Shown here: positions 32,867-57,210 of the stretch, piece after piece
Numbering within the stretch: position 1 is the first letter of the stretch
Layout of the letters: each line of letters starts with the position of its first letter
Assembly: GCF_004365655.1 (NCBI RefSeq)
Contig: NZ_SOEO01000002.1
Span: 186,001-250,000 of the forward strand
Source: Epilithonimonas xixisoli
GTDB lineage: Bacteria > Bacteroidota > Bacteroidia > Flavobacteriales > Weeksellaceae
DNA: 64,000 bases
Direction of reading: 5' to 3'
Position numbers and translations under genes: made by a program
The notes under the pieces: generated by a model
The model's database searches: none
What the model was told of the DNA's origin: nothing
The model's input: only the letters and a program-made list of their open reading frames with translations

Positions 32867-32952
32867 GGAGCTATTTCCCGCTTTTCACTGCTACTCCTCG
32901 CGCCAATGCATTTCCCATCGCTAGCTGTGGGGTATCCGTTGCAATCGGGGCT
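32867..32952 (-). repeat. Dispersed 3' element, copy A
   Basis: Homologous to copies at 42355-42438 and 57130-57210 (which lie on the plus strand). On the minus strand it begins AGCCCCGATTGCAACGGATA and ends AGCGGGAAATAGCTCC. It lies 7 bases after the stop of the LRR gene. The terminal pairing is reduced to AGC/GCT. Confidence 0.8.
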
Positions 32953-33010
32953 ATGGGGTTTGTCATCCAATCAAAAAGTCAAAAAAAATCGAAGCCTTGT
33001 TTTTTTCATT

Positions 33011-33075
33011 TCTCTGTCTCTAATCTCCAAATCTTTTAATCTCGCATCTCCCAAACATCCATCTCCCATCCTTTC
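33011..33075 (-). repeat. GAGAT-rich intergenic repeat upstream of icmF
   Basis: On the minus strand the DNA is a chain of GGGA, GAGAT and GATTTGGAG words and includes the exact 16-mer GAGATTAAAAGATTTG shared with 13725-13740. Confidence 0.55.
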
Positions 33076-33093
33076 CCATTTCCCAAAAAATAT

Positions 33094-33101
33094 TATCTTT
33101 G
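33094..33101 (+). promoter_or_regulatory. -7 element of icmF
   Basis: TATCTTTG, exact TAnnTTTG, 20 bases before the ATG. The -33 area (CTTT) is only a partial match. Confidence 0.45.
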
Positions 33102-33121
33102 AAACCTATCGATAATATAAA

Positions 33122-36100
33122 ATGGAAACCCAAAAATATACGCCAACAAACAAAGTAAGAATTGTAACAGCAGCTTCATTATTCGACGGGCACGATGCGG
33201 CCATCAATATTATGCGTCGTGTCATTCAGGGAACAGGATGCGAAGTTATCCACCTTGGCCACGACAAATCTGCTGAAGAAGTAGTGAACACAGCGATTCA
33301 GGAAGATGCCAATGCCATTGCATTAACTTCTTATCAAGGTGGTCACAACGAATATTTCAAATACATCTACGACCTTTTAAGGGAAAAAAACTCTCCGCAA
33401 ATCAAAATTTTCGGTGGTGGCGGCGGCGTCATTCTGCCCGAAGAAATCGAAGATATTATGTCTTACGGAATCGACAGAATTTATTCTCCGGACGACGGCC
33501 GTGAACTTGGTTTACAGGGAATGATCGACGATTTGGTGAAAAGATCAGACTTTGCAACAGGAAAAGAAGTGACTGCCGAAGATTTAGATAATATCAGTTT
33601 TGAAAATTCTACAAGCATTGCAAAAATCATTTCTGCCGTTGAAAACTTTTCAGAAGAAAAACCGAAATTGGTTAAAGCCATTGACGAAAAATCAAAAGAT
33701 TTAAATATTCCAATCATCGGGATTACGGGTACAGGTGGAGCCGGAAAATCCTCTTTGACAGATGAATTGGTAAGACGTTTCCTCCGTTCAAATCCTGGTA
33801 AAAAAATTGCGATTATTTCCATCGACCCTTCAAAAAAGAAAACCGGAGGTGCACTTTTAGGAGACAGAATCCGTATGAATGCGATCAATGACCCGAGAGT
33901 TTATATGCGTTCGATGGCGACGAGAGAAAACAATGTTTCTGTTTCTCCGTTCATTCATTCTGCTTTAAATGTGTTGAAATTAGCTCATCCGGATGTTATC
34001 ATTTTGGAAACTTCAGGTATCGGACAATCCGGTTCGGAAGTTTCGGATTTTGCTGATGTTTCAATGTACGTAATGACTCCTGAATATGGAGCTTCCACAC
34101 AGTTGGAAAAAATTGATATGTTGGATTATGCAGATTTGGTTGCATTAAATAAATCCGACAAACGTGGTGCTTTGGATGCACTTCAAGCGGTAAGAAAACA
34201 GTTCCAGCGAAACCATTTGCTGTGGGAAAGTCCGTTGGATGATATGCCGGTTTATGCTACAAAAGCATCTCAGTTCAATGACCACGGAACGACCGATTTA
34301 TATAATCGATTAATCGAAAAAGTTAATGCTAAATATTCTGATTTAAATCTGAAAGGTTTTGTTGAACAGGAAGTTTCAGAAGACATCACGATTATTCCTC
34401 CAAAAAGAGTCCGTTATTTATCTGAAATTGTTGAAAATAATAGAATCTACGACGCCAATGTTGAAAAACAGGCAGAATTAGCAAGAAAAATGTATCATAT
34501 TGAAGGAGTGAAAAAATTCCTTTCTAATGAAACTTTAGATACTGAATATCAGAAAGCAGAAAAAGACCTTCAACAGGAAAATATCGACTTTTTGAAAAAC
34601 TGGGATGACACGAAAGAGGCTTTCAAAGCTGAATTTTATTCCTATTTCGTTCGTGGAAAAGAAATTAAAGTAGAAACCTCAACAGAATCTTTATCTCATT
34701 TAAAAATTCCAAAAATATCTCTTCCAAAATATACCGATTGGGGAGATTTGATTAAATGGAAAGGTCAGGAAAATCTTCCTGGAGGATTCCCGTACACAGC
34801 GGGAATTTATCCTTTCAAAAGAACTGGTGAAGACCCGACGCGAATGTTTGCCGGAGAAGGCGGACCGGAAAGAACCAACAGAAGATTCCATTACGTTTCT
34901 GCTGAAATGGATGCAAAGCGTTTGTCAACCGCGTTTGACTCGGTGACTTTGTACGGACAGGATCCTGCCCTACCACCGGATATTTACGGTAAAATTGGAA
35001 ATGCGGGAGTTTCAATCGCAACATTAGATGATGCTAAAAAATTGTATTCCGGATTTGATTTGGTGAATGCAATGACTTCCGTTTCAATGACGATCAACGG
35101 ACCTGCGCCGATGTTGCTGGCTTTCTTTATGAATGCCGCGATCGACCAAAATGTTGAAAAATATATTGCTGAACACAATCTTGAAGCGAATGTTGAGAGA
35201 GCTTTAAAAGCAAAATTTGACGATAAAGGTTTAGCAAGACCAAAATATAACGGAGAACTTCCGCCTTCTAATAATGGTTTAGGTTTAAAATTATTAGGAC
35301 TTACCGGAGACGAAGTGATTCCAGCCGAAGCTTATGCTGAAATTAAGGCTAAAACAATCGCGACCGTTCGTGGAACAGTTCAGGCTGATATTTTAAAAGA
35401 AGACCAGGCTCAAAATACCTGTATTTTCTCCACTGAATTCGCCCTTAGATTGATGGGTGACGTTCAGGAATATTTCATCACAGAAAAAGTAAGAAACTTT
35501 TACTCGGTTTCCATCTCAGGTTATCACATTGCCGAAGCGGGTGCAAATCCGGTTTCTCAGTTGGCATTTACATTGGCAAATGGTTTCACGTATGTGGAAT
35601 ATTATCTGTCAAGAGGAATGAACATCAATGATTTTGCACCCAACTTATCCTTCTTCTTCTCCAACGGTATCGACCCTGAATATTCAGTAATCGGACGTGT
35701 AGCAAGAAGAATCTGGGCAAAAGCAATGAAATTAAAGTACGGAGCCGATGAAAGAAGCCAGATGTTGAAATACCACATTCAAACTTCGGGTCGTTCGCTT
35801 CACGCTCAGGAAATTGATTTCAATGATATCAGAACAACGCTTCAGGCGCTTTATGCAATTTACGATAACTGTAATTCACTTCACACCAATGCGTATGACG
35901 AGGCAATTACAACGCCGACTGAGCAGTCTGTAAGAAGAGCGATGGCGATTCAGTTGATTATCAATAAAGAATTAGGATTGGCGAAGAATGAAAACCCGCT
36001 TCAAGGTTCATTTATTATTGAAGAATTAACGGATTTGGTGGAAGAAGCTGTTTATGCAGAATTCGACAGAATCACAGAAAGAGGTGGCGTTTTGGGTGCA

Positions 36101-36469
36101 ATGGAAACGATGTACCAACGTTCGAAAATTCAGGAAGAATCAATGCATTATGAATGGCTGAAACACACCGGAGAATATCCAATCATCGGGGTAAATACTT
36201 TCTTAGGAAAAGATGGTTCGCCAACGGTTCGTCCGGGAGAAGTGATTCGTTCGACTGAAGAAGAAAAACAGGTTCAGATTGAAACGCTTCATAATTTCCA
36301 GAAGTCTAATGAAGATAAATCGGAGGCCGCTTTGAAAACGTTACAACACGCTGCTATCAATCAACAAAATTTATTTAATGTAATGATGGATGCTGTGAAA
36401 TACTGTTCGCTTGGGCAGATTACCAATGCTTTGTTTGAAGTGGGTGGGAAGTACAGAAGAAATATGTAG
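33122..36469 (+). CDS. icmF: Fused isobutyryl-CoA mutase (IcmF)
   Basis: 1115 residues in the IcmF order. First is a B12-binding domain (about 10-140) with D22-G-H24 (FDGHDAAIN) to ligate cobalt. Next is a MeaB-like GTPase chaperone (about 195-420) with P-loop [11 protein letters not shown] near 201-211. The catalytic TIM barrel (about 545-1100) has [20 protein letters not shown]. That last stretch distinguishes IcmF from methylmalonyl-CoA mutase. The enzyme interconverts isobutyryl- and butyryl-CoA (some members act on pivalyl-CoA) with adenosylcobalamin, and the G domain handles cofactor loading and repair. It stands alone. Confidence 0.93.
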
Positions 36470-36542
36470 GCGAAGTATTAATAGTTTGTTTTCATAAAAA
36501 TATAAAGTTTTCTTAAAATAATTATTTTCTAAAAAGGAAATT

Positions 36543-36550
36543 TATATTTG
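36543..36550 (+). promoter_or_regulatory. -7 element of the small lipoprotein gene
   Basis: TATATTTG, exact TAnnTTTG, 16 bases before the ATG at 36567, giving a leader of about 10 bases. Confidence 0.45.
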
Positions 36551-36566
36551 TAAAAAATAACAAAAA

Positions 36567-36758
36567 ATGAACAAATTAATTACAATCATTTCAATAATAT
36601 CCTGCGTTTCATTATTAAACTCTTGTAAGCCTCAACAAATGAGCCAATATCCACCAAGTGATATCAGTAGAAATACAGAAGAATCGAAAAAGACAATAGA
36701 AACAACAAAAGTGGAAGTCAATTCAATAAATGATTTTGGAAAGCCTGGATCTCGATAA
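36567..36758 (+). CDS. Small lipoprotein of unknown function
   Basis: 63 residues with a lipobox-like LLNSC at 16-20 (MNKLITIISIISCVSLLNSC). The mature peptide of about 44 residues is polar. It has a -7 element just upstream and a strong terminator just downstream, so it is a real monocistronic transcript. No recognised family. Confidence 0.6.
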   Translation: MNKLITIISIISCVSLLNSCKPQQMSQYPPSDISRNTEESKKTIETTKVEVNSINDFGKPGSR

Positions 36759-36780
36759 GATTCATTAACGAAAAAAATCC

Positions 36781-36808
36781 AAAACCGCAGAAATCTCTGC
36801 GGTTTTTT
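36781..36808 (+). terminator. Terminator after the small lipoprotein gene
   Basis: AAAACCGCAGA-AATC-TCTGCGGTTTT, perfect 11-bp stem with further T. Confidence 0.9.
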
Positions 36809-36867
36809 GATTCCAAAAATTCTCGGTTTGCTTTTTGATTACAAGCATCAGAATCAAATATTAATTT

Positions 36868-38073
36868 ATGAAACTCAAATCTCCCGAACCATTCTGGCTT
36901 GTAAAAGACGGCATCAAACATTCTTATCCTTCGCTCAGAGAAAACATCGAAACTGAAATTCTAATCATCGGTGGTGGAATTACCGGTTCTTTTCTTGCAC
37001 ATCAAATGATAAAAGACGGCTTCAAAACTGTTTTAGTTGACCGACGAGAAATCGGGAACGGAAGTACGAGTGCTACAACATCAATGCTGCAATATGAGAT
37101 TGATATTCCGCTTTTCGAACTCTCAGAAATGATTGGGAAAGAAGGTGCGGAGAAATCTTATTGGGCTTGTTATGATTCTATTAATGATTTGCAGAAAATT
37201 GCTAAAGAAGTGAAATCAGAATGTGGTTTTAGGAAAAAACAATCCCTTTATTTTGCAGCTTTCAAAAAGGATGTTGCGGATTTGAAAAAGGAATTCGAAG
37301 CCAGAAAATCGGCGAAGTTTCCTGTGAAATGGCTTTCGTCTGAGGAAATCAGCAAGACATTTAAAATCGAAAATACGTTTGGCGGAATCCTTTCCGAACA
37401 AGGCGGAAGCATCGATGCTTTTTGCCTGGCGCACGATATTCTGAATTACAATCATAAAAAAGGTTTGCAAGTTTTTGATAAGACCGACATCATTAAATTC
37501 GATTATAAAAAAAATGGAGTGACTGCAACCACAGAATTTGGAAATAAAATCAAAGCCAAGAAAGTGATTTTCTGCAATGGTTTCGAAAGTACAGAAATCA
37601 TCAAAGACAAATTTGTAAATCTATTGTCAACTTATGCGATTGTCGGTGAACAAAACGAGAAAAACCACAAAGAATTGAATGACCTTTTGGTTTGGAATAC
37701 GGCCGAACCTTACATTTATATGAGAACGACTGATGACAATCGGGTTTTGATCGGTGGTGAAGATGAGGAATTTGTGAATGCAAAAAAACGAGATTCTTTA
37801 CTTCACGAAAAGGAACAAAAGCTGGTTAAAAAATTGGACAAATATTTACCTAAAAATGATTTCCGCACAGATTTTGTCTGGGCAGGAACTTTCGGTGAAA
37901 CCAAAGATGGACTGCCTTACATCGGTGAACATCCAGAATTTCCGAGTGCTTATTTTGTTTTAGGTTTTGGCGGAAATGGGATTACTTTTTCTGTTATCGG
38001 GATGGAAATGGCTTCTGATTTTCTCAAAGGAAAAAAACACGAATTATCAGAATATTTCAGATTCCGAAGATAA
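36868..38073 (+). CDS. FAD-dependent oxidoreductase (DAO family)
   Basis: 401 residues. An N-terminal Rossmann motif IIGGGITGSFLAHQM (32-46) is followed by the flavin-binding stretch VDRREIGNGSTSATTSMLQY. The C-terminal FAD-contact motif is YFVLGFGGNGITFSVIGMEM. The fold is that of D-amino-acid oxidase/glycine oxidase; related proteins with an added Rieske domain exist, but this one has none. Substrate unknown; cytosolic. Confidence 0.8.
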   Translation: MKLKSPEPFWLVKDGIKHSYPSLRENIETEILIIGGGITGSFLAHQMIKDGFKTVLVDRREIGNGSTSATTSMLQYEIDIPLFELSEMIGKEGAEKSYWACYDSINDLQKIAKEVKSECGFRKKQSLYFAAFKKDVADLKKEFEARKSAKFPVKWLSSEEISKTFKIENTFGGILSEQGGSIDAFCLAHDILNYNHKKGLQVFDKTDIIKFDYKKNGVTATTEFGNKIKAKKVIFCNGFESTEIIKDKFVNLLSTYAIVGEQNEKNHKELNDLLVWNTAEPYIYMRTTDDNRVLIGGEDEEFVNAKKRDSLLHEKEQKLVKKLDKYLPKNDFRTDFVWAGTFGETKDGLPYIGEHPEFPSAYFVLGFGGNGITFSVIGMEMASDFLKGKKHELSEYFRFRR

Positions 38074-38087
38074 TTGTCTTATGCGAA

Positions 38088-38117
38088 TTTGAGATGTCAT
38101 TTTTTATTCTAAATTTG
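38088..38117 (+). promoter_or_regulatory. Promoter of the YciI-like gene
   Basis: TTTG at 38088-38091, 18 bases, TAAATTTG at 38110-38117; both elements match the consensus. Confidence 0.65.
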
Positions 38118-38133
38118 GAATAAACTTAAACAA

Positions 38134-38589
38134 ATGAAATCACTGTTTGCAATTCTTTCTTTAGTTATATTTTCTTCGTTCGCAAATGCTCAGAATAAAG
38201 ATTTTAATCAAAAACTGGCAGATTCTCTTGGAGCAGACCAATATGGAATGAAATCCTATTATCTTGTCATTCTCAAAAAAGGAAAAGCTGAAATCACGGA
38301 CAAAGCCAAGAAATCAGAATTGATGAAAGGTCATATGGACAACATCAACAAACTGGCAAAAGATGGAAAACTGATTGTCGCTGGACCAATGGCGGAGAAA
38401 AATCAAAGTGATTACAGCGGGATTTTTATTCTGGATGCGAAAACCAAAGAAGAAGCGGAAAGTTTGGTTCTGACAGATCCTTCTGTAAAATCAGGAATCT
38501 TCGATGTGGAAATTTACAAATGGTATGGTTCTGCTGCACTTCCACTCTATTTGAAATCTCACGACAAAATCACCAAAGTCAAATTCTGA
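38134..38589 (+). CDS. Secreted YciI-like domain protein
   Basis: 151 residues: signal peptide (MKSLFAILSLVIFSSFANAQ), then a YCII-type ferredoxin-like fold (KSYYLVILKKGKAE, MKGHMDNINKLAKDGKLIVA, DPSVKSGIFDVEIYKWYGSA). The conserved His of the family is in KGHMDN. Most YciI proteins are cytosolic; an exported one is less usual. It overlaps the next gene by one base (TGATG), so they are co-translated. Confidence 0.75.
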   Translation: MKSLFAILSLVIFSSFANAQNKDFNQKLADSLGADQYGMKSYYLVILKKGKAEITDKAKKSELMKGHMDNINKLAKDGKLIVAGPMAEKNQSDYSGIFILDAKTKEEAESLVLTDPSVKSGIFDVEIYKWYGSAALPLYLKSHDKITKVKF

Positions 38590-38960
38590 TGGAAACTTAC
38601 AAAACTTTTGAGGATTATTTTTCTCACTTCAATGAGGATGTGATTGAGAAATTAGAACAAATCAGAATTGATATCAAGAAAGAAATTCCGGAGGTTGAAG
38701 AATGTATCAAATATGCGATGCCGACTTTCATTTTCCACAAGAAAAATCTGATTCACTTTGCGTCCTACAAAAATCATATCGGAATCTATCCTGGTCCAGA
38801 AGCTATTACCTTCTACGAAAAAGAATTATCAAATTATAAAACTTCGAAAGGCGCAATTCAAATTCCTTTGGAGGAAGATGTTCCATTAGATTTAATCAAA
38901 AAAATCGTGCAACACGGAAAGGAACGAATTCTCAAAACCACAAAAACCACTAATAAATAG
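38589..38960 (+). CDS. DUF1801 (YdhG-like) protein
   Basis: 123 residues from ATG 38589 (METYKTFEDYFSHFNEDVIE); the upstream in-frame start at 38520 would lie inside the YciI-like gene. KKEIPEVEECIKYAMPTFIF and KNHIGIYPGPEAITFYEKEL are the family pattern. Bacillus YdhG of this fold has been described as a frataxin-like iron chaperone, but that role cannot be assumed here. A small hairpin (CCACTA/TAGTGG, 38947-38963) covers the stop codon. Confidence 0.8.
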   Translation: METYKTFEDYFSHFNEDVIEKLEQIRIDIKKEIPEVEECIKYAMPTFIFHKKNLIHFASYKNHIGIYPGPEAITFYEKELSNYKTSKGAIQIPLEEDVPLDLIKKIVQHGKERILKTTKTTNK

Positions 38961-38975
38961 TGGCTTGGTGAAAAA

Positions 38976-39500
38976 TTAATTTCTATTGATTTTGATTTGA
39001 TTTTTCTCTGTAGCATTCATCAATTTTGAAATATCATCTGGCGAAAATTTTCCCTTAACGTCCACAAAGATCGTTTCGTCATTTTCTGCTCTCACCGTGA
39101 TAATCATTCGTTTGATGATGTCCGAAGATTGCTGTGCATTGAGGCTGATGAGATTGCCTTCTTGCTTTATAGACATCCATTCTTCGTAATTATTTTTGTT
39201 CAGATATTTCTGAAATTCAGTTCTAATAGGCGTTTTAGAATCTCCAACGATCAGCACTTTCACATCTTTCACTTTCTTTACCAGATCTATCACTTCTTGG
39301 CTCTCATTATCTTCACGCAAAGCTTTTTTCACATAAGATCTTGCAAGAAAAGTCGGAACGTTGATGCTTATAAAAGTCGAACTGTTTTTGAATCCCGGAT
39401 TGTCAAAGAAATCGGTGTGAACTTTTTTATGAGAAACCATACACGACTGTAGAAAAAAACCGACAATCGTCAAAATAATAATGTATAAAAATCGTAACAT
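38976..39500 (-). CDS. DUF4252 lipoprotein
   Basis: 174 residues with a lipoprotein signal (MLRFLYIIILTIVGFFLQSC). The DUF4252 pattern is KKVKDVKVLIVGDSKTPIR, FQKYLNKNNYEEWMSIKQEG and IKRMIITVRAENDETIFVDV. Last gene of the ECF operon, 12 bases after the GIN protein, whose N-terminal half is a homologous domain. Function not established. Confidence 0.8.
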   Translation of the reverse strand: MLRFLYIIILTIVGFFLQSCMVSHKKVHTDFFDNPGFKNSSTFISINVPTFLARSYVKKALREDNESQEVIDLVKKVKDVKVLIVGDSKTPIRTEFQKYLNKNNYEEWMSIKQEGNLISLNAQQSSDIIKRMIITVRAENDETIFVDVKGKFSPDDISKLMNATEKNQIKINRN

Positions 39501-39512
39501 AATTCTTTAGTT

Positions 39513-40760: not shown

Positions 40761-40851
40761 AATTGATATTAAAATTTAATTAATGATTTGCTACTTATTA
40801 AGTACTGATTTATCGAATATTCTACGATAGCAATTCATTATTTGTTTGGTG

Positions 40852-41595
40852 TTAAAAATTAAGAATCTTGTAAAAATCAACCGTTTGATTTTGTGCAGAT
40901 TCCGCTTGATTTATGGTTTGGGTAACGTTACTTGCGAAATAATTAAAAGTATCCTCTGCCACAGCAATCGCCTCCTGCTCGTTGTAGATTGGTTTTCCGT
41001 TGATGATGACGTAATTCGGATTGTAATCTGAATCGGAGTTTACTTTATTTTGATTAAGATTTTCATCTTTTTGTTTTGGTTGATGAGACGCGAACTGCGC
41101 TTTTGATTCCTGCTTTCCAAAAACAGTTTTTTTCTCAATTTTTTCTTTCTCAGGCTGTACATTTTGTTGAGCTAAAGCCGGTTGTTGTGCTGTAACATCT
41201 TCTGCTGGAGAAGCTTTCGGCTCTTCAATTGGTTTTGGTGTTTCTACAACATTTGCAATTTGTGGTTCTACATTTTCTGGATTATTAAAAATCCAAAATC
41301 CGCTGATTCCCATCAATAAAACCAAACTTGCGGCCATCCAATATTGTTGGTAAGATTTCTTTTTCGCAACTGGAAGTGCCACTATTTTATGTTCTTCTGT
41401 CACATTTTGCTTTGTCGCTTTGTTTAAGAAATCCTCGAAGCTGATGTCTAGTTTCTCCTGTTTCTCTTCTTTCAGAAAAGAGAAATATAGATTATCGCTT
41501 TCATTTTTCAGGAACAATTCTTCTTCTGGCGTCAATTCCTCGCCTTCGAAGAATTTAGATTCCCAATCCTTGTATCTGTCGGTTTTCATACGCAT
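40852..41595 (-). CDS. Anti-sigma-factor-like membrane protein
   Basis: 247 residues, one transmembrane segment at about 95-115 (YWMAASLVLLMGISGFWIF). The cytosolic part is acidic and helical (DRYKDWESKFFEGEELTPEE), and the periplasmic part is Pro/Glu/Gln-rich. The start overlaps the ECF sigma gene by 41 bases, the usual sign of a sigma/anti-sigma pair. The ATG at 41589 is an equally good start. No named anti-sigma motif is seen, so the role is inferred from place and topology. Confidence 0.65.
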   Translation of the reverse strand: MRMKTDRYKDWESKFFEGEELTPEEELFLKNESDNLYFSFLKEEKQEKLDISFEDFLNKATKQNVTEEHKIVALPVAKKKSYQQYWMAASLVLLMGISGFWIFNNPENVEPQIANVVETPKPIEEPKASPAEDVTAQQPALAQQNVQPEKEKIEKKTVFGKQESKAQFASHQPKQKDENLNQNKVNSDSDYNPNYVIINGKPIYNEQEAIAVAEDTFNYFASNVTQTINQAESAQNQTVDFYKILNF

Positions 41596-42073
41596 AAAGT
41601 TTGTTAATAGATTCTTTCACTTTTTGTCTGGCTCTCATCAGGTTGATTCGGACGGCGTTGTCTTCCATATCCAGCATTTCTCCGATTTCTGAGATTTCAT
41701 ATTCCTCTACATCTTTCAGGTGAATGACCATTTTTTGTTTCTCGGGCAGTTGGGAGATGAATCCCAAAATCTGCTCTTTCATATTGTTTGTTTCGATTTG
41801 ATAAAGCTCGGACCGATGTCTCGTCTGGCTTGCAAATCCTAATTTTACTTCGTGGTGTTTCAGTCGGTTGAGGCATTCGTTTTTGACACTTCTCATTGCA
41901 AAACTTTTCACGTTTTCGATGATTGATAGCTCGTCTTTCTTTTGCCAAAACTTCATCATCAAATCCATTACCACATCTTCCGCTTCGTCTGCGCTCATCA
42001 AAAACTTTTTGGCGAAACGATACATCTCATCCTTGAGAATATATACGGTTTCTTTAAAGTTTTCTTGAGTCAT
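41555..42073 (-). CDS. ECF RNA polymerase sigma factor
   Basis: 172 residues. Region 2 (about 10-75) has AEDVVMDLMMKFWQKKDELS; region 4 (about 105-160) has LPEKQKMVIHLKDVEEYEIS and LMRARQKVKESI. First gene of an operon with an anti-sigma-like protein, the GIN protein and DUF4252. A leader hairpin (GAGGTT/AACCTC) lies 20-50 bases upstream of the start. Confidence 0.92.
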   Translation of the reverse strand: MTQENFKETVYILKDEMYRFAKKFLMSADEAEDVVMDLMMKFWQKKDELSIIENVKSFAMRSVKNECLNRLKHHEVKLGFASQTRHRSELYQIETNNMKEQILGFISQLPEKQKMVIHLKDVEEYEISEIGEMLDMEDNAVRINLMRARQKVKESINKLYAYENRQIQGLGI

Positions 42074-42214: not shown

Positions 42215-42354
42215 GATAATCAATTTATTATTTTGCGAAATATTTTTACATTTCTTACGTTGATTTGTCATTCTGAAAGAATCTCAACTTTTTAGCTTCC
42301 GATAGAATTACAAAACTAAATTTTTATTTTGAATGTTGATTTTATGCAGAATCT

Positions 42355-42438
42355 GCGCCCCGACTTGAGCGGAAATCCTTTTTTGTGGCTGGAAAAGCTA
42401 GGCAAAAAGATTGGGAGTGGAAGGCGGAAATAGGCGCC
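42355..42438 (+). repeat. Dispersed 3' element, copy B
   Basis: Begins GCGCCCCGACTTGAGCGGAA and ends GAGTGGAAGGCGGAAATAGG then CGCC. The ends pair GCGCC/GGCGC. Inside, AATCCTTTTTTG pairs with CAAAAAGATT. It lies 10 bases after the stop of the minus-strand hydrolase. It aligns with copy C over the whole length. Confidence 0.85.
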
Positions 42439-42448
42439 CGCTAAATTA

Positions 42449-43705
42449 TTACTCCCCAGAATTCACAGTTGCGGAATCGGTTTCAGTTGCGCCTTTCGGA
42501 TTCAATGTTTTGTTCAATTTCTCCGTCTCGTAAGGGAAATTTTCAAACAATCCGGACAATGCCAACGCAGAATAAACGCGCTGAGAATACTTGTTCCCAA
42601 TGGCAATTATCGTGACTTTCGATTTCAAAAGATGGGCAAAAACCGAATTGGTTCCGTGCCACCAACCGTTGTGATAGGTCAGTTTTTCGCCATTATCGAA
42701 TTGCTTCATCCGGAACCCAAGACCGTAATTGTTTATTCCTTTTTTCTCGTTGCTGTAAGGTTCGAAGATTTTGTTTGCTAGTTCTGGCTTCAGGAAATCT
42801 TTGGAAAACATCGCCACAGAAAAATTGAGCAAATCCCTTGGCGTGGTGTAAACATTTTTGTCTCCATAAATCAAATCGAGATTGTCCAATGGATACAATC
42901 TATAACCGCTGAAGAAGGATTGCGACGCAGTGGGAATGTCTTTTTTCTGGAAAATGTAGGAATGATTCATCTTCAAAGGTTTGAAAACAATCTCCTGCAT
43001 CGCCTCAGGGAAAGGTGTTTCCGTCACTTTTTCGATAATCAGAGCCAAGAGCGCAAAGTTGGTGTTGCAATACATAAATCCGGTGTTGGACATCCTTGCC
43101 AACTCGGGTTTGTACTTGATGAGCATTTCCAAAACGCTTTGATTGGTCAGGAATTCCTGTTTCAATTCTTCGGGCGCAGGCGTAATACTTTTGTCAAAAT
43201 GTTCGTATTTTGGAAGTCCGCTTCTTTGGGAAAGTAAGCTAAAAACGGTGATGTTTTGATAAGGAAATTTGGGGAAAAATTTGGTCAAATCATCTTCCAG
43301 ATTCAGTTTTCCGGCTTCTACTAATTTGAGAACTGCCATTGCCGTCATTGTTTTGCTGACAGACGCTACGTGAAGTGGCGTGTTTTCATCAATTGGCATT
43401 TGCTGGTTTTCTCTGCCAAATCCTCTGTATTTTTCGAACAGAATTCTGTTGCCTTTTGCTATGAGAATTCCACCGCTTAAATCGCTTTGTTCCCAAACTT
43501 TTTGATAGTAATTATCGATCAAAGGTAAAATTGAAGTTTGGTTGGCTAAGGTCAAATCTTCTGCCGGAAACACTTTTTCGAGATTTACATTTCCGAAGTT
43601 TGGGAGTTTGGAATCGTAAACTTCTTCTGTAGATTCTTTGTCTTTTTTACAAGAAACAATTGACAAAACAATTAAAACCGGAGCGATTACTTTTCTAAAA
43701 TTCAT
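42449..43705 (-). CDS. Serine hydrolase lipoprotein (class C beta-lactamase fold)
   Basis: 418 residues with a lipoprotein signal (LIVLSIVSCKKDK, Cys19). The penicillin-binding fold has S115-V-S-K118 (VASVSKTMTAM), Y212-C-N214 (MYCNTNFALL) and a HNGWWHG motif in place of KTG. Such proteins are usually esterases or D-aminopeptidases rather than true beta-lactamases. It is anchored in the periplasm, stands alone, and has the repeat element directly behind it. Confidence 0.85.
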   Translation of the reverse strand: MNFRKVIAPVLIVLSIVSCKKDKESTEEVYDSKLPNFGNVNLEKVFPAEDLTLANQTSILPLIDNYYQKVWEQSDLSGGILIAKGNRILFEKYRGFGRENQQMPIDENTPLHVASVSKTMTAMAVLKLVEAGKLNLEDDLTKFFPKFPYQNITVFSLLSQRSGLPKYEHFDKSITPAPEELKQEFLTNQSVLEMLIKYKPELARMSNTGFMYCNTNFALLALIIEKVTETPFPEAMQEIVFKPLKMNHSYIFQKKDIPTASQSFFSGYRLYPLDNLDLIYGDKNVYTTPRDLLNFSVAMFSKDFLKPELANKIFEPYSNEKKGINNYGLGFRMKQFDNGEKLTYHNGWWHGTNSVFAHLLKSKVTIIAIGNKYSQRVYSALALSGLFENFPYETEKLNKTLNPKGATETDSATVNSGE

Positions 43706-49035: not shown

Positions 49036-49148
49036 TCTTTTAAATTTTTGTTTGTTAAAATTTATTGGAATAAAAGGGGCGAAAAGAATTAACAATGAAG
49101 AATTAATAATGATGTAATCTCCGGAAATCAATCACTACTAATTTTTTA

Positions 49149-49171: not shown

Positions 49172-49172
49172 A

Positions 49173-49241: not shown

Positions 49242-49253
49242 AATTTCTGACTG

Positions 49254-49261
49254 CGAAATTA
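49254..49261 (-). promoter_or_regulatory. -7 element upstream of the TPP riboswitch
   Basis: Minus strand TAATTTCG, one mismatch from TAnnTTTG; it would start the transcript about 7 bases before the aptamer. It sits 14 bases after the stop of the upstream gene. Confidence 0.45.
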
Positions 49262-49274
49262 CATTTTTTTTTAA

Positions 49275-49943: not shown

Positions 49944-49957
49944 CGAGGGCGTTTGTG

Positions 49958-50380: not shown

Positions 50381-50506
50381 TGTAATTAAAAGTTAAACGA
50401 GCGAGAAAGTAAAGATTAATATGATAAAAACATTAAATATAGATAAAATATATGTAATTTATTTTTAATCTAAATTATTCTTCTCTTATAAAAGTTTTGA
50501 ATTTCG

Positions 50507-50514
50507 TAAATTTG
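50507..50514 (+). promoter_or_regulatory. -7 element of acnB
   Basis: TAAATTTG, exact TAnnTTTG, giving a leader of about 137 bases. Confidence 0.45.
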
Positions 50515-50584
50515 GGCGAATTTACAAGACCTAAAACCAAACAGATAAGACTTTTTATCTTGACGGTTTTAAGGACAAACAAAC

Positions 50585-50631
50585 TGTAGATTTTTAGCAA
50601 TATTTTAATTATTGTTTTCAAGAACATCTAC
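50585..50631 (+). promoter_or_regulatory. Nested inverted repeats in the acnB leader
   Basis: Outer arms GTAGAT (50586-50591) / ATCTAC (50626-50631), inner arms CAATA (50598-50602) / TATTG (50610-50614). A structured 5' UTR is plausible; the aconitase family can itself bind RNA, but no such link is shown here. Confidence 0.35.
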
Positions 50632-50657
50632 TCAAAAAAAAGAAAAAGACTTCTATA

Positions 50658-53438
50658 ATGAATATTTACAAAGATTACCTTAAAGAAATTGAAGAAAGAA
50701 AACAGCAAGGTTTACACCCAAAACCAATTGACGGTGCAGAATTGCTAAGCGAAATCATTGCACAAATCAAAGATTCTGGGAATGCAGATCGTGCGGATTC
50801 TCTTCAGTTTTTTATTTACAATACTTTGCCTGGTACGACGAGTGCTGCAGGCGTGAAAGCTAAATTTTTAAAAGAGATTATTCTCGGTGAATCCATTGTA
50901 GAAGAAATTACACCAACTTACGCTTTCGAATTATTGTCCCACATGAAAGGTGGACCTTCCATTGAAGTATTGCTGGACTTGGCACTTGGTCAAGATTTAG
51001 TTATTGCTCAGCAAGCTTCAGATGTTTTGAAAACTCAGGTTTTTCTTTATGAAGCAGACACTGATCGATTGAAAGAAGCTTTCAACAATGGAAACGAAAT
51101 CGCCAAAGAAATCATAGAAAGCTACGCACAAGCAGAATTTTTTACGAAACTTCCAGAAGCTCCGGAAGAAGTAAAAGTGGTAACATACATCGCTGGAGAA
51201 GGTGATATCTCTACAGATTTATTATCTCCAGGAAATCAAGCACATTCAAGATCTGATCGTGAACTTCACGGTTTGTGTATGATGACGCCCGCAGCTCAGC
51301 AAGAAATCAAAGCTTTGCAAGCACAACATCCTGACAAGAGCGTGATGTTAATCGCTGAAAAAGGAACAATGGGTGTTGGATCGTCCAGAATGTCGGGTGT
51401 AAACAACGTGGCGCTTTGGACAGGTAAACAAGCTAGTCCATATATTCCATTCGTAAATATCGCACCAATCGTTGCAGGAACAAACGGAATCTCTCCAATT
51501 TTCTTGACTACTGTTGACGTAACCGGCGGAATTGGAATTGACCTTCAAAACTGGGTGAAAAAAGTAGATGCAGAAGGCAATGTAATCCGTAACGAAAACA
51601 ACGAACCAATCCTTGAAGAAGTTTATTCTGTAGCTACCGGAACAGTTCTTACCATTAATACCAAGACCAAAAAATTATACAACGGCGATCTGGAAGTGAA
51701 AGATATTTCTAAATCATTTACGCCACAAAAAATGGAATTCATCAAAGCTGGCGGATCTTATGCCATCGTCTTTGGTAAAAAATTACAAACTTGGGCATCT
51801 AACATTTTAGGAATTGAAATTCCTACGGTTTATGCGCCATCAAAAGAAATCACGAAAGAAGGTGTTGGTCTTACCGCAGTTGAAAAAATCTTCAACAGAA
51901 ATGCTGTTGGTGTTGCTCCAGGAAAATTATTGCACGCTGGTTCAGACGTAAGAGTTGAAGTCAACATTGTTGGTTCTCAGGATACAACAGGTTTGATGAC
52001 TGCTCAGGAATTGGAATCAATGGCAGCAACAGTTATTTCTCCAATCGTTGATGGGGCTTACCAATCTGGTTGTCATACCGCTTCAGTTTGGGATAAAAAA
52101 GCGCAGGCTAATATTCCAAGATTGATGAAATTCATGAACGATTTCGGATTGATCACAGCTCGTGACCCGAAAGGTGAATACCACGCAATGACAGACGTTA
52201 TTCACAAAGTTCTTAACGATATTACGATTGACGAATGGGCAATCATCATCGGAGGAGATTCTCACACAAGAATGTCCAAAGGTGTGGCTTTCGGTGCTGA
52301 CTCAGGAACTGTAGCTTTGGCTTTGGCGACTGGAGAAGCTTCTATGCCGATTCCGGAATCTGTAAAAGTAACTTTCAAAGGTGATATGAAAGCGCACATG
52401 GATTTCCGTGATGTGGTTCACGCAACTCAGTTGCAAATGCTTCAGCAATTTGGAGGCGAAAATGTTTTCCAGGGTAGAATCATCGAGGTTCACATCGGAA
52501 CACTTCCTGCGGATCAGGCGTTTACATTCACCGACTGGACTGCAGAGATGAAAGCAAAAGCGTCAATCTGTATCTCTGAAGACGATACGTTGATCGAATC
52601 TTTGGAAATTGCAAAAGGCAGAATCCAGATTATGATCGACAAAGGAATGGATAACCATCTTCAGGTTCTTCAAGGTTTAATTAATAAAGCAAACAAGAGA
52701 ATCACTGAAATTAAATCTGGCGAAAAACCAGCTTTGACACCAGATTCAAATGCTAAATATTATGCAGAGGTCGTTGTTGATCTTGATGCGATTGTTGAGC
52801 CAATGATTGCCGATCCAGACGTTAACAACGAAGATGTTTCTAAAAGATACACGCACGATACAATCAGAGACTTGACTTATTACGGAGGTGATAAAAAAGT
52901 GGATCTTGGTTTCGTAGGATCTTGTATGGTTCACAAAGGCGATTTGAAAATCGTTTCTCAAATGTTAAGAAACATCGAAAAACAAAATGGTAAAGTAGAA
53001 TTCCAAGCACCATTGGTAGTTGCGGCTCCAACTTACAACATCATCGACGAATTGAAAGCAGAAGGTGATTGGGAATTGCTTGAAAAATATTCAGGTTTCG
53101 AGTTTAATGACAATGCTCCGAAAGGTGCTGCCCGTACAGAATATGAAAATATGATGTACCTAGAGCGTCCAGGATGTAACCTTTGTATGGGTAACCAAGA
53201 AAAAGCGGAAAAAGGAGATACTGTTTTAGCAACTTCTACTCGACTTTTCCAAGGTAGAGTTGTGGAAGATTCCGAACGTAAAAAAGGTGAATCTTTATTG
53301 GCTTCAACTCCGGTTGTTGTACTTTCTGCAATCATCGGGAGAATTCCAAGTATCGAAGAATACAAAGAAGCTGTTGAAGGCATTGACTTAACGACTTTCA
53401 TTCCTTCTATTAAGGAATTGGTAACAGTTGGTCATTAA
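50658..53438 (+). CDS. acnB: Aconitate hydratase B / 2-methylisocitrate dehydratase
   Basis: 926 residues, with the AcnB layout: N-terminal HEAT-like domain (about 1-155), swivel domain, then the catalytic domains. The [4Fe-4S] ligands are C756 (GSCMVHKG), C840 and C843 (GCNLCMG). IIGGDSHTRMSKGVAFGADS and RLFQGRVVEDSERKKG are active-site regions. It interconverts citrate and isocitrate in the TCA cycle and can act on 2-methylisocitrate. It has its own promoter region and ends with two tandem hairpins. Confidence 0.97.
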   Translation: MNIYKDYLKEIEERKQQGLHPKPIDGAELLSEIIAQIKDSGNADRADSLQFFIYNTLPGTTSAAGVKAKFLKEIILGESIVEEITPTYAFELLSHMKGGPSIEVLLDLALGQDLVIAQQASDVLKTQVFLYEADTDRLKEAFNNGNEIAKEIIESYAQAEFFTKLPEAPEEVKVVTYIAGEGDISTDLLSPGNQAHSRSDRELHGLCMMTPAAQQEIKALQAQHPDKSVMLIAEKGTMGVGSSRMSGVNNVALWTGKQASPYIPFVNIAPIVAGTNGISPIFLTTVDVTGGIGIDLQNWVKKVDAEGNVIRNENNEPILEEVYSVATGTVLTINTKTKKLYNGDLEVKDISKSFTPQKMEFIKAGGSYAIVFGKKLQTWASNILGIEIPTVYAPSKEITKEGVGLTAVEKIFNRNAVGVAPGKLLHAGSDVRVEVNIVGSQDTTGLMTAQELESMAATVISPIVDGAYQSGCHTASVWDKKAQANIPRLMKFMNDFGLITARDPKGEYHAMTDVIHKVLNDITIDEWAIIIGGDSHTRMSKGVAFGADSGTVALALATGEASMPIPESVKVTFKGDMKAHMDFRDVVHATQLQMLQQFGGENVFQGRIIEVHIGTLPADQAFTFTDWTAEMKAKASICISEDDTLIESLEIAKGRIQIMIDKGMDNHLQVLQGLINKANKRITEIKSGEKPALTPDSNAKYYAEVVVDLDAIVEPMIADPDVNNEDVSKRYTHDTIRDLTYYGGDKKVDLGFVGSCMVHKGDLKIVSQMLRNIEKQNGKVEFQAPLVVAAPTYNIIDELKAEGDWELLEKYSGFEFNDNAPKGAARTEYENMMYLERPGCNLCMGNQEKAEKGDTVLATSTRLFQGRVVEDSERKKGESLLASTPVVVLSAIIGRIPSIEEYKEAVEGIDLTTFIPSIKELVTVGH

Positions 53439-53457
53439 TAACATTTTGATGTAATTC

Positions 53458-53495
53458 AGCCTTGTCAAGGCTCAAAACCTTGACAAGGCTTTTAA
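53458..53495 (+). terminator. First hairpin after acnB
   Basis: AGCCTTGTCAAGG-CTCAAAA-CCTTGACAAGGCT, a perfect 13-bp stem followed by TTT. Confidence 0.75.
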
Positions 53496-53500
53496 ATAAT

Positions 53501-53536
53501 AAAAAATCCCGAATTCTATTGAATCGGGATTTTTTG
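53501..53536 (+). terminator. Second terminator after acnB
   Basis: AAAAATCCCGAATTC-TATT-GAATCGGGATTTTTT (one bulge), with a good T run. Confidence 0.85.
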
Positions 53537-53708
53537 TTTAGAATATTTCCATATTAACTGATCAAAGTTCAATTTAAATGAAAATTAAAGTTCGGAATCT
53601 CAATTTTTATTAACTTGATAGTTGTAAAATATTGTTACCATACATCTTATTTATAACCATTTAAGAAATGTAGGAACAAAATTTGATAAATAGAATAAGA
53701 CTATTTTC

Positions 53709-53759
53709 CTCGATTAAATCAGGGAAAATTTGATTAATTAATTATAAAATAAAATCGAG
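53709..53759 (+). promoter_or_regulatory. Inverted repeat just upstream of the second aconitase
   Basis: CTCGATT / AATCGAG around a loop of 37 bases with a further partial AATC/GATT pairing. The second arm abuts the start codon, so folding could affect initiation. Confidence 0.35.
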
Positions 53760-53761
53760 AT

Positions 53762-56032
53762 ATGACTTTTGACTTAGATATGATTAAAAAGGTTTATTCT
53801 GATTTCGAAACCAGAGTGAACGATGCAAGAGCTTTTATGGGAAGACCTCTTACCTATTCCGAAAAAATCCTTTGTGCACACTTGGATGTAAAACAAGTAA
53901 GAGAATCTTTCAAACGTGGGGATTCTTACGTAGATTTTGCGCCGGACAGGGTGGCAATGCAGGATGCAACAGCACAAATGGCGCTTCTGCAATTTATGCA
54001 GGCAGGCAAGGCAAAAGTTGCAGTTCCATCGACGGTTCATGCAGATCACTTGATCCAAGCAAGAGTTGGTGCAGAGAAAGATCTTATCGAAGCTGAAAAT
54101 AAAAACAACGAAGTTTATCAATTTCTTCAATCAGTTTCTAATAAATACGGCATCGGATTTTGGAAAGCAGGCGCAGGAATTATTCATCAAGTTGTTTTAG
54201 AAAATTACGCATTTCCTGGTGGATTGATGATCGGAACCGATTCTCACACTGTAAACGCAGGCGGATTGGGAATGGTTGCCATCGGTGTTGGTGGTGCTGA
54301 TGCTGTGGATGTAATGGCAGGAATGCCGTGGGAACTAAAATTTCCAAAAATGATTGGTGTAAAACTAACGGGAAAACTTAACGGTTGGACTGCAGCAAAA
54401 GATGTCATTTTGAAAGTAGCGGGAATCCTAACTGTAAAAGGAGGAACTGGCGCCATTGTAGAATATTTTGGAGACGGTGCGGAATCTCTATCTTGCACTG
54501 GCAAAGGTACGATTTGTAATATGGGTGCAGAAGTCGGAGCTACAACTTCGATTTTCGCTTATGACCAAAATATGAGCAAATATCTCCGCTCCACAGACCG
54601 AGAAGATTTGGCTGATGCAGCAGACGCGATTGCTCACGTTTTAAAAGCTGACCCAGAAGTTCTCGCAAATCCAGAGAAATATTTTGATGAAGTAATTGAA
54701 ATTAATCTTGATAATCTGGAGCCCTACCTCAACGGACCTTTCACTCCAGATTTGGCAACACCAATTTCTCAGATGAAAGAAATCGCTGAGAAAAATGGAT
54801 GGCCAACGAAAATCGAAGTTGGATTGATAGGTTCTTGCACCAACTCGTCTTATGAAGATATAGCCAGAGCAGCTTCCGTAGCAAAACAAGCGAAAGAAAA
54901 AAACCTTGAAGTAAAAGCAGAATATACGATCACTCCAGGATCAGAACAAGTAAGATTCACTGTAGAAAGAGACGGTTTTTTGAAAACTTTTGATGAAATT
55001 GGTGGTAAAGTGTTTGCCAATGCTTGTGGACCTTGCATCGGACAATGGGCACGTGAAGGCGCTGATAAACAAGAAAAAAACACAATCGTTCACTCTTTCA
55101 ACAGAAATTTTTCGAAAAGAGCTGATGGAAATCCGAATACTTACGCTTTCGTAGGTTCACCAGAGTTGGTAACCGCAATGGCTATTGCCGGAGATTTGAG
55201 ATTCAATCCATTGACAGATAAACTTAAAAATAAAGACGGAGAAATGGTTCTTCTGGACGAGCCAAGTGGCGATGATCTTCCAAGATTAGGTTTTGATGTT
55301 GATGATCCGGGTTATATTGCTCCCGCAGAAGATGGTTCTAATGTTGAGGTGATTGTTTCTCCAACATCAGACAGACTTCAGTTATTAGAAGAATTCCCAG
55401 CTTGGGACGGAAAAAATATAACCGGAGCCAAACTTTTAATCAAAGCTTACGGAAAATGCACGACAGACCATATTTCTATGGCTGGACCTTGGTTGAAATA
55501 CCGTGGACATCTTGATAATATCTCCAACAATATGTTGATTGGTGCAGTAAACGCCTTCAATATGGAAACGAATAATGTGAAAAATGAAGAAGACGGACAA
55601 TACAAACCAGTTCCTGATTCTGCAAGACAATATAAAGCTGATGGTATTCCTACCATCGTAGTTGGTGATGAAAACTATGGTGAAGGTTCTTCCAGAGAAC
55701 ACGCGGCAATGGAGCCGAGACATCTTGGCGTGAGAGCAGTTTTGGTAAAATCCTTTGCCCGAATCCACGAAACGAATCTTAAAAAACAAGGAATGCTCGG
55801 AATCACTTTTGACAATAAGGAAGATTACGACAAAATCCAGGAAGATGACACGATCAACTTCTTAGATTTGGATCAGTTTGCACCAAACAAACCATTGACT
55901 TTGGAATTTGTACACGCCGATGGAACCAAAGACATCATTGTAACAAATCATACTTACAACGCTGGACAAATTGCTTGGTTCAAGGCTGGATCTGCACTCA
56001 ATCTTATTAAGAAAATGGAAAAAGAAAGCTAG
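53762..56032 (+). CDS. Aconitate hydratase, mitochondrial type
   Basis: 756 residues, a different branch from AcnB and close in length and sequence to mitochondrial aconitase. The [4Fe-4S] ligands are C359 ([10 protein letters not shown]), C422 and C425 ([10 protein letters not shown]), one residue off the bovine numbering. [14 protein letters not shown] and [18 protein letters not shown] are active-site regions. Same reaction, citrate to isocitrate, in the TCA cycle. Separated from acnB by terminators, so it is independently expressed. Confidence 0.95.
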
Positions 56033-56052
56033 AATTTAATTTCTTATAAAAG

Positions 56053-56085
56053 AAAAAGCCTTGCAAAACTGCAAGGCTTTTTTTA
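56053..56085. terminator. Bidirectional terminator between aconitase and a convergent gene
   Basis: AAAAAGCCTTGCA-AAAC-TGCAAGGCTTTTT: perfect 13-bp stem with A and T runs on both sides. It overlaps the stop codon of the minus-strand gene at 56083. Confidence 0.9.
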
Positions 56086-56463
56086 TGCTTTATTTTCTTC
56101 TGTCTTGATTTCTTCTTGTCTGCAAAACTTAGACTCAAATCTTTGTTTCCACATTTGCTTCATCTTTTCCCTTTCTTCCTCAGTTCCACAAAATCTCGTT
56201 TCTAATTTTTGTTTCCACATCTCTCTTTCATCATTTCCAAAACCATTTCTATTTCTGAATTTCTCTTTTGCATTGGCCAATCCTCCAAATAGTATTTTTG
56301 AAATCACCAAAATCCCAAGAGACTGCCAATAAGTAATCGCTTTCACGCCCAAAACATCGGGCAAAACCATATTCCAAAGCCATTGGAAAAACCAAATAAA
56401 CAATCCAATTGCAACAATAATGCATGGGAATGCTAACCAAAATTTCTTTTTATGCTTGTTCAT
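56083..56463 (-). CDS. Small membrane protein downstream of an ECF sigma gene
   Basis: 126 residues: two transmembrane helices (about 8-33 and 44-62), then a charged cytosolic helix with a repeated motif, MWKQKLETRFCGTEEEREKM and MWKQRFESKFCRQEEIKTEE. The duplicated WKQ(K/R)(L/F)E(T/S)(R/K)FC unit is notable. It lies 10 bases after the sigma gene and so is in one operon. It takes the place where an anti-sigma factor would be, but no known anti-sigma domain is visible. Confidence 0.65.
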   Translation of the reverse strand: MNKHKKKFWLAFPCIIVAIGLFIWFFQWLWNMVLPDVLGVKAITYWQSLGILVISKILFGGLANAKEKFRNRNGFGNDEREMWKQKLETRFCGTEEEREKMKQMWKQRFESKFCRQEEIKTEENKA

Positions 56464-56473
56464 TTTCTTAAAA

Positions 56474-57049
56474 TTAATTTTTCAAATCGTTGTAAAGTCG
56501 CTGCAATCTTTTTCGCAAATGTTTTACCGCGTATGATTTTCTACTGATAATTGTTTTGATGTTTTCGCCCTCTTCGTCCGCAATTTCCTGCAAAGTTTTA
56601 TCTTCCAATTCATTCTGAACATAGACCTTCTTCTGCTTTTCCGGCAATTCATCCAATGCCTTCATTAGCTCGTCCCAGAACATATCTTTGAACATTGCGA
56701 TTTCCGGATTGTTGCTGTCATCTGCGAGGAGAATATCTTTCACATTCAGTTCGCCGTCTTCATCCTGATAGACAAAATCTTCCAGAGATTCTGTTTTCTT
56801 CTTGCGATAGCTGTCGATGATTTTGTTTCGGGTCACCGAATATAACCAAGCTCCGACATTTTCCAACTCATTAAGGTTGGTCAATCGGCTGGTTTGAAAC
56901 CAAACTTCCTGTAGAATATCTTCTGCATCTTCCGTCTTTGCCACTTTCGAATTGATAAAGCGCAAGAGTTGGGAGCCGTAATTTTTCACGACTTCCGTAA
57001 TAGATACAGATTTTGTTTCGGCCATTGGCTGTAAAGATAGCGAGTCCAT
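56474..57049 (-). CDS. ECF RNA polymerase sigma factor
   Basis: 191 residues. Region 2 (about 20-90) has EDAEDILQEVWFQTSRLTNL and WLYSVTRNKIIDSYRKKKTE. Region 4 (about 130-185) has LDELPEKQKKVYVQNELEDK and LQEIADEEGENIKTIISRKS. It is sigma70-family group 4 and pairs in an operon with the two-helix membrane protein downstream. Confidence 0.92.
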   Translation of the reverse strand: MDSLSLQPMAETKSVSITEVVKNYGSQLLRFINSKVAKTEDAEDILQEVWFQTSRLTNLNELENVGAWLYSVTRNKIIDSYRKKKTESLEDFVYQDEDGELNVKDILLADDSNNPEIAMFKDMFWDELMKALDELPEKQKKVYVQNELEDKTLQEIADEEGENIKTIISRKSYAVKHLRKRLQRLYNDLKN

Positions 57050-57129
57050 ACGAATAAGACGACACTCCTTTTTTTTTACTTTAAAGTTTTCGAAATTATT
57101 TTGAAAACGTCTTCAAAATTTGAATCCTC

Positions 57130-57210
57130 GCAGCCCGGCTTGAACGGAAATCCTTTTGCGAGGATGAACGACGAACAAAAGATTGTGAGTGGAAGACGGA
57201 GATAGCTGCC
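57130..57210 (+). repeat. Dispersed 3' element, copy C
   Basis: Begins GCAGCCCGGCTTGAACGGAA and ends GAGTGGAAGACGGAGATAGC then TGC. The ends pair GCAGC/GCTGC. Inside, CCTTTTG pairs with CAAAAG. It lies 37 bases after the stop of the minus-strand acyltransferase gene. Confidence 0.85.

Follow-up and report, generated by a model that had tools for sequence, protein, structure and literature searches.

What are the three similar hairpins, each beside a stop codon, in the window (the whole stretch of 64,000 nucleotides from Epilithonimonas xixisoli that we analyzed)? The initial annotation saw in them a three-copy element, always just after a stop codon, and took this as a sign of selection for RNA structure in 3' UTRs.

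The three hairpins are homologs of Flavo-1

Copy A (32866..32960, minus strand; core at about 32889-32937) is a type I element with a core of class d. Its sequence scores 42.2 bits against Rfam's Flavo-1 model (RF01705; match at 32870-32956), which is just above the cut-off of 42 bits. Copy B (42348..42439, plus strand; core at about 42371-42416) and copy C (57123..57211, plus strand; core at about 57146-57188) are type II elements with cores of class a. They are Flavo-1 homologs that score below the Rfam gathering score, at 39.4 bits and 26.3 bits (the latter at C2:243128-243206). A profile of 57 copies from the same genome (R1) gives 66.9, 83.2, and 59.2 bits to A, B, and C, all of which were among its training rows; this agrees with the claim that they are homologous hairpins. 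The terminal arms also pair as claimed: GCGCC (42355-42359) with GGCGC (42433-42437) in B, GCAGC (57130-57134) with GCTGC (57205-57209) in C, and AGC with GCT in A. A 20-base pattern from B and C, allowing up to 3 mismatches, has 2 matches where 0.04 are expected. Together with A's Rfam score and the roughly 126 family copies in the genome (A, B, and C among them), this confirms that the repeats are not random. The count of three is correct for the window but not for the genome.

The suggestion that the element is widespread in flavobacteria was right, as there are matches in two flavobacterial families. It had also been described, as Flavo-1, by Weinberg et al. 2010 (PMC2864571). In the accessible part of another report, Flavo-1 is listed with abundant bacterial sRNA families and its function is left blank (PMC9029176).

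In E. xixisoli, 64 matches exceed the RF01705 cut-off. These include 45 of 50 type I copies, all 13 type III copies, and 6 of 58 type II copies, so type II is a relative of Flavo-1 that lies mostly below the cut-off. (We dropped two Rfam matches with E > 2, and left out L145-L149 and L169 (E 0.061) as weak matches.) The copies have a nested build, with an end helix, then outer arms interrupted by G.A, then an inner core with the apex. The Flavo-1 helix (CCG, 2 bp, 2 bp, and 4 bp, with G.A-type internal loops) could be parsed in 122 of 127 places in the genome. A script found one core class on both arms in 118 of the 127. By eye, the other nine are five misreadings by the script, two point changes, one truncated copy, and one chance match. 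One of the 127 places (L125, C1:636934-637011) lies inside a coding gene and is probably a chance match. Counts of position use 120 places: we left out L125, one more place that overlaps a called gene, and five at the edges of stretches.

The structured strand is mostly antisense to the neighboring gene

RNAalifold found only 7 pairs in the whole alignment, because cores of different classes misalign, and we counted pairing by parsing the arms instead. The pairing is strong, as had been proposed: in 478 of 488 cells, the four helix pairs are standard or G.T. On the Flavo-1 strand, G.T pairs outnumber A.C (15 versus 3 of the 488 cells), and 117 of the 122 parsed copies have a G.A mismatch, so it is on the Flavo-1 strand that the structure has been kept. 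With RNA parameters, this strand also folds to a lower energy than the complementary strand in 90 of 127 places, and with DNA parameters in 104 of 127. Copy A is an exception (-24.3 for the complement versus -19.0, with RNA parameters), and the lowest-energy fold of copy C differs from the family hairpin.

In the window, the Flavo-1 strand is antisense to the preceding gene in all three copies, which agrees with the common orientation that had been noted. With the boundaries from the initial annotation, copy A lies 7 bases past the stop codon of an LRR protein that carries a Por secretion tail (31222-32859, plus strand). Copy B is 10 bases past the stop of a beta-lactamase-family serine hydrolase (42449-43705, minus strand), and copy C is 37 bases past the stop of a hexapeptide transferase (57248-57823, minus strand).

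Across the genome, "always" becomes a tendency. For 40 of 120 copies, a stop codon lies no more than 60 bp from the 3' end of the element; the null expectation is 17.0 (standard deviation 3.5), and none of 2,000 random placements reached this count. Between tandem genes, 57 copies are antisense and 23 are sense, and types I and II both show this bias (22:10 and 29:9). Gene starts are avoided: 6 copies have one at most 60 bp from their 5' end (null 18.3), and 10 have one that close to their 3' end (null 18.4). Still, 27 of the 120 copies lie between divergent genes, that is, between two gene starts. (Genes were called with a custom script based on codon usage, which missed some genes.) In a genome from another family (G025), the 34 copies that we counted, from the 35 best-scoring copies that were fetched, show no orientation bias (10:10) and no clear preference for stops (9 versus a null of 6.6). 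The preference for 3' ends is thus present in E. xixisoli and was not seen in those 34 copies. As for a bias relative to replication, the GC skew of the fetched stretches was too noisy to orient the contigs.

Cores are replaced as units at orthologous sites

We compared the copies with those in a sister genome (G001). Among 48 copies with both flanks mapped, 47 are at the same site and in the same orientation. (The 48 are from 90 fetched G001 copies, and our own stretches were chosen around our own copies, so 47/48 is not a rate. G001 has 112 matches, of which 22 were unfetched.) We could parse 41 of the 47 pairs; the other 6 are unparseable. In 12 of the 41, the identity of the core is below 0.7, and in 9 of these 12 the two outer arms are still at least 0.85 identical. 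Both arms of the helix beside the core are altered in 10 of 18 pairs with core identity below 0.86 and in 0 of 23 pairs above it (Fisher p = 3.9e-5). This cut-off was picked after seeing the table, and cut-offs of 0.6, 0.7, 0.8, and 0.9 give p = 0.025, 0.040, 0.007, and 0.0007. A caveat is that G001 is a draft (73% complete, 370 contigs), so some of the mosaics may be assembly errors. Within the G001 pairs alone, the end helix is the same in 9 of 12, where random pairing would give a fraction of 0.62, which is weak support for its stability.

The window's own sites show the same pattern. At site B, the GCGCC/GGCGC ends are present in all 9 species that have the element, with cores of class a in 2, class c in 5, and others in 2. 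These ends are rare: of 59 copies in E. xixisoli whose type II end can be read, only 7 have them. At two further site B loci that the model missed (L151 and L153), we found GCGCC/GGCGC by eye around an unrelated middle. At site C, GCAGC is present in 9 of 9, with cores of class a in 5 and c in 4. Site A has kept its element in 20 of 23 species; 20 copies there have cores of class b (10), d (9), or a (1). Site A is also the one site with a contrast between one-contig genomes: G004 has core b while G015 and G022 have core d.

At fixed sites, then, the core is replaced as a unit, with both arms changing together and the ends unchanged. This mode of change, block replacement of cores at orthologous sites, is what is new here. 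The initial annotation had counted the paired changes toward a selected RNA structure. But where both arms changed in the sister species, the core was replaced as well, so these are not independent compensatory mutations. Because many copies keep their place while their core is exchanged whole, their paired base changes say little in favor of an RNA role.

Some copies could not be placed. For 42 copies in G001, the two flanks could not both be mapped, and 26 of these have long flanks without a match. We followed two of the 42: at one, our own site has a foreign core between the outer arms, and at the other there is no element. Among the few absences that we examined, we found no clean empty site that would show a duplicated target. 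Only for L236 is an absence seen together with its two flanks, and there about 295 bp are missing, which is more than the element.

Exchange between copies, transposition, or RNA

On balance, we favor the view that Flavo-1 elements are REP-like intergenic DNA hairpin repeats that are kept by exchange between copies and have no regulatory task in 3' UTRs. The replacement of cores would be ectopic exchange between dispersed copies, by gene conversion or by template switching where a fork or a hairpin nuclease meets the palindrome. The shared outer arms would supply the homology, and the family would persist as a self-renewing population of DNA hairpins. More tentatively, we suggest that cores could be exchanged as cassettes among fixed sites, both arms at once and faster than the flanking DNA, and that this exchange could make much of the covariation. 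We traced no donor copy for any event and did not see the reaction itself. The proximity to stop codons in the genus would reflect tolerated space distant from gene starts. However, the 3'-end and antisense bias in the genus is real; it counts against our reading, as an idle DNA element does not account for it.

It seems unlikely to us that Flavo-1 is a REPIN/MITE-type transposon that is non-autonomous and relies in trans on a Y1 (RAYT) transposase or some other enzyme. In that case, a change of core would be the replacement of a whole element at a preferred site, and where the outer arms are alike, the two look the same. Dispersed copies are up to 99% identical over 72 bases, and the inverted ends around a variable middle match the descriptions of REPINs in the available part of PMC8049555. 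Of the 23 genomes from the genus, 21 have a Y1 transposase, and one such gene in E. xixisoli (L063) has, by eye, the YIHQNP-type motif of subclass 2.6. In Bacteroidetes, that subclass is reportedly flanked by atypical secondary structures (PMC6006769, in the part available). But Flavo-1 is absent from the 32 Y1 loci that we scanned with up to 1,500 bases of flank (3 from E. xixisoli and 29 from the genus, out of 56 Y1 matches in the genus, with 24 outside the scan), aside from one chance-level match (E 0.31). The three Y1 genes of E. xixisoli, including L063, are flanked by other palindromes. Two genomes (G005 and G017) have no Y1 match, yet have 82 and 90 Flavo-1 matches, and the rare ends at site B persist while its cores change. 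As for compound transposons, we read by eye the proteins between 15 neighboring pairs of copies less than 4 kb apart (one stretch was incomplete), and none resembles a transposase. Nor did one canonical type I copy (L031) match any phage or plasmid, although records near the genome may be missing from that collection. An attC-like integron site, which the structured bottom strand after a stop codon could suggest, was dropped as the copies are dispersed.

It is improbable that the Flavo-1 strand gives rise to a structured RNA, either antisense or stand-alone, as in Rfam's classification (gene, sRNA). The retention of structure on that strand and its lower folding energy fit this idea, but single-stranded DNA would give an equal asymmetry between strands. 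Also, G.T pairs are scarce, and the number of matches in relatives' genomes ranges from 0 to at least 91. In the available part of a transcript map of F. psychrophilum (PMC9723704), several 5' regions coincide with Flavo-1 matches, but the matches occur in either sense and many are beyond the transcribed regions.

The proposal of the initial annotation, an mRNA element on the complementary strand for processing, stability, or termination (such as a C-rich Rho loading site), is likewise improbable. It would be consistent with the excess of stops and the antisense bias in E. xixisoli (in types I and II), with the retention of site A, and with a 3' arm that is C-rich in the mRNA sense (on the Flavo-1 strand, G is 0.313 and C is 0.175). 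However, the G.T pairs and G.A mismatches favor conservation of the structure on the opposite strand, and the mRNA strand is on the whole less structured. The structured strand is mostly antisense to the neighboring gene, so a role as 3' UTR RNA is unsupported. The lack of bias in G025, the matches in either sense in F. psychrophilum, the copies between two gene starts, and the double changes that come with replaced cores also argue against it.

If exchange is correct, then a family that was accepted as an RNA because of its covariation would be a product of DNA recombination, and it could be worth testing other RNA families that derive from repeats in this way. Covariation tests that take dispersed copies as independent can mislead when parts are exchanged. 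Block-wise paired changes at fixed sites give a testable reason for treating Flavo-1 as DNA.

Relation to other repeats

Our elements share the helices and the G.A-type 3x3 loops of Rfam's Flavo-1, and copy A exceeds the curated score, whereas B, C, and most type II copies do not. In Rfam, Flavo-1 is entered as an sRNA gene, whereas the orientation, the swapping cores, and the copy number point to DNA. ERIC- and BOX-type repeats of other phyla are likewise imperfect intergenic palindromes of about 100 bases with no known mover. Gene conversion was reportedly proposed for REPs by Higgins in 1988. Like REPs and REPINs, Flavo-1 elements are intergenic, of high copy number, and long-lived at their sites, with conserved inverted ends and a variable middle. 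Unlike in the REPIN and RAYT system, none of the 32 scanned RAYT-like loci carries or adjoins one. Flavo-1 also differs in being one hairpin of 80-120 bases with G.A loops, in which cores swap within fixed ends.

Copies, structure, and distribution of the element

The initial annotation described a dispersed element with three copies, A, B, and C. All three are present as described, both in the sequence itself and as matches to R1, a profile built from 57 copies from this genome (these three included): A at 32866-32960 (minus strand), B at 42348-42439 (plus strand), and C at 57123-57211 (plus strand). Copy A belongs to Flavo-1 (RF01705), an Rfam family of hairpins: its score in the Rfam search is 42.2 bits, and the gathering score is 42. 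(Copies B and C score 39.4 and 26.3 bits.) A weak R1 match at 5392-5459 (minus strand; 17.9 bits, E = 0.0043) is possibly a decayed copy.

Across the E. xixisoli genome (3,389,369 bases in 11 contigs), there are 116 Rfam matches to Flavo-1 at E ≤ 10, with 64 above the gathering score, and BLAST with copy B as the query gives 44 matches. Once overlaps are merged and two matches with E > 2 are left out, 127 places are found: Rfam gives 114, and BLAST adds 13. One of these is a chance match inside a gene, so the copy number is about 126. By their outer arms, 50 places are type I (36, plus 14 of a variant, I'), 58 are type II, and 13 are type III; the other six consist of the chance match and five places that by eye resemble type II. 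Copy A is type I, and copies B and C are type II. All 13 type III places meet the gathering score, as do 45 of 50 type I places and 6 of 58 type II places.

Both arms could be parsed at 122 of the 127 places. At four variable pairs (488 cells), 463 are Watson-Crick, 15 are G.T, 3 are A.C, and 7 are other combinations. At one position, 117 of the 122 parsed copies have a G.A mismatch (A.G 103 times and G.A 14 times). Since a folding strand tolerates G.T but not A.C, we take the Flavo-1 strand to be the structured strand. Folding predictions agree modestly: predicted folding is lower for the Flavo-1 strand than for its complement in 90 of 127 cases with RNA parameters (copy A is an exception) and in 104 of 127 with DNA parameters.

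Among the E. xixisoli type II copies with the apex GGAAAAGC-NNN-GGC (such as L002, L004, and L013), the NNN triplet differs in nearly every copy, while the neighbouring bases hardly vary; when 18 triplets were compared pairwise, 7 of 153 pairs were identical. Other repeats lie inside the arms or cores at L136, L160, L151, L142, L169, and L317, and examples of these repeats are CCCTTCGACAAGCTCAGG, AACCACTCCGTTAGGTTTG, and CATTGCGA..TCGCAATG. A type I subgroup (L054-L056, and partly L046 and L048) has longer common flanks, CCTCAACATAG ... GCGGGTTGGAA, and is perhaps a larger composite element.

With up to 91 candidates scored per genome, Flavo-1 was found at E ≤ 0.001 in 27 of 39 genomes (including E. 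xixisoli): all 23 from the genus, the single other genome from the family, and 3 of the 15 that represent the order's other families. A phylum-wide survey with stricter filters (E ≤ 1e-5; up to 15 candidates scored per genome) found it in 40 of 296 genomes, and 29 of those 40 are in two families.

Hairpins persist at their sites and their cores are replaced

We fetched 90 of the 112 Flavo-1 copies in the draft genome of a sister species. For 48 of these, both flanks map onto E. xixisoli stretches, and 47 of the 48 share both site and orientation with an E. xixisoli copy (the exception, L236, has no counterpart). Because those stretches were chosen around E. xixisoli copies, the 47 of 48 shows that sites are shared, not how often. 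Among the remaining 42 copies are 26 with long but unmatched flanks. Two of the 42 were traced to E. xixisoli: the site of L247 there has the outer arms enclosing a core that belongs to another repeat, a case that the searches missed, and the site of L249 has about 876 bp of other DNA.

A script, with some misreadings, classed the 47 pairs as the same (30), different in the core only (11), in the outer arms only (4), or in both (2). Of 41 measured pairs, 12 have cores less than 0.7 identical, and in 9 of these 12, both outer arms are at least 0.85 identical. In 10 pairs, both sides of the two base pairs flanking the core have changed, against a single side in 2 others. The both-side changes are in 10 of the 18 pairs whose cores are less than 0.86 identical and in 0 of 23 pairs above (Fisher p = 3.9e-5; this cut-off was picked once the table had been seen, and cut-offs of 0.6, 0.7, 0.8, and 0.9 give p = 0.025, 0.040, 0.007, and 0.0007). 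As both-side changes are confined to pairs with diverged cores, paired changes accompany a replaced core, as a block.

Across 23 genomes of the genus, mostly drafts, the element is at site A in 20 and at site B in 9; for site C, 14 loci were scanned and 9 have it. At site B, the ends GCGCC/GGCGC are kept in 9 of 9, and the cores are of class a (2), class c (5), or other (2). (By eye, two more site B loci, L151 and L153, have these ends around an unrelated middle.) At site C, GCAGC is kept in 9 of 9 and GCTGC in 8 of 9, around cores of class a (5) or c (4). Site A cores are of class b (10), d (9), or a (1); among one-contig genomes, G004 has b whereas G015 and G022 have d. The initial annotation attributed the different ends of B and C to two positions changing together. 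We read the difference as one between two sites that each retain their own end. GCGCC is on just 7 of the 59 E. xixisoli copies whose type II end can be read yet is kept at site B, so it looks like a signature of that site.

Thus, hairpins persist at their sites, and cores were found replaced, both arms together, while the ends stay. We propose that the core may be exchanged with another copy via the shared outer arms. Gene conversion or template switching at the palindrome could give such an exchange. The natural rival is that a Y1 (RAYT-like) transposase is behind the changes. But the 32 Y1 loci that were scanned (out of 56 Y1 matches) contain no Flavo-1 copy, and two genomes that lack a Y1 match carry 82 and 90 Flavo-1 matches. 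Three Y1 genes (L061, L062, and L063) are flanked by other palindromes: CACGAGC..GCTCG units are by L063 and near L061, and AGCTCCGTAGGAGC-like units are by L061 and L062. The literature searched, largely open-access journal papers, gave no account of core exchange or of what Flavo-1 does.

Gene context

The initial annotation placed the element just after stop codons. This tendency holds in E. xixisoli, but not as a general rule. Among 120 copies within called intergenic regions, 40 have a stop codon within 60 bp of the element's 3' end (null mean 17.0, sd 3.5; 0 of 2000 random placements attained 40), and for 93 the closest gene is on the 3' side (null 60.0). Between tandem genes, 57 copies are antisense and 23 are sense; another 27 lie between divergent genes and 13 between convergent genes. 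In copies A, B, and C, the structured strand is antisense to the preceding gene. In a genome from the same order but a different family (counting 34 of the 35 copies fetched, which were picked among the best-scoring), the contexts are 10 antisense, 10 sense, 7 divergent, and 7 convergent, and 9 of 34 copies have a stop near the 3' end, versus a null of 6.6. A sample of this size could miss a weaker bias in that genome.

The genes on the far side of B and C (41555-42073 and 56474-57049) both encode sigma-70 family factors with regions 2 and 4, which is probably a coincidence. Also, we noticed after the fact that where neighbouring E. xixisoli copies are less than 4 kb apart, 11 of 15 pairs are ordered minus-plus, with their 5' ends facing.
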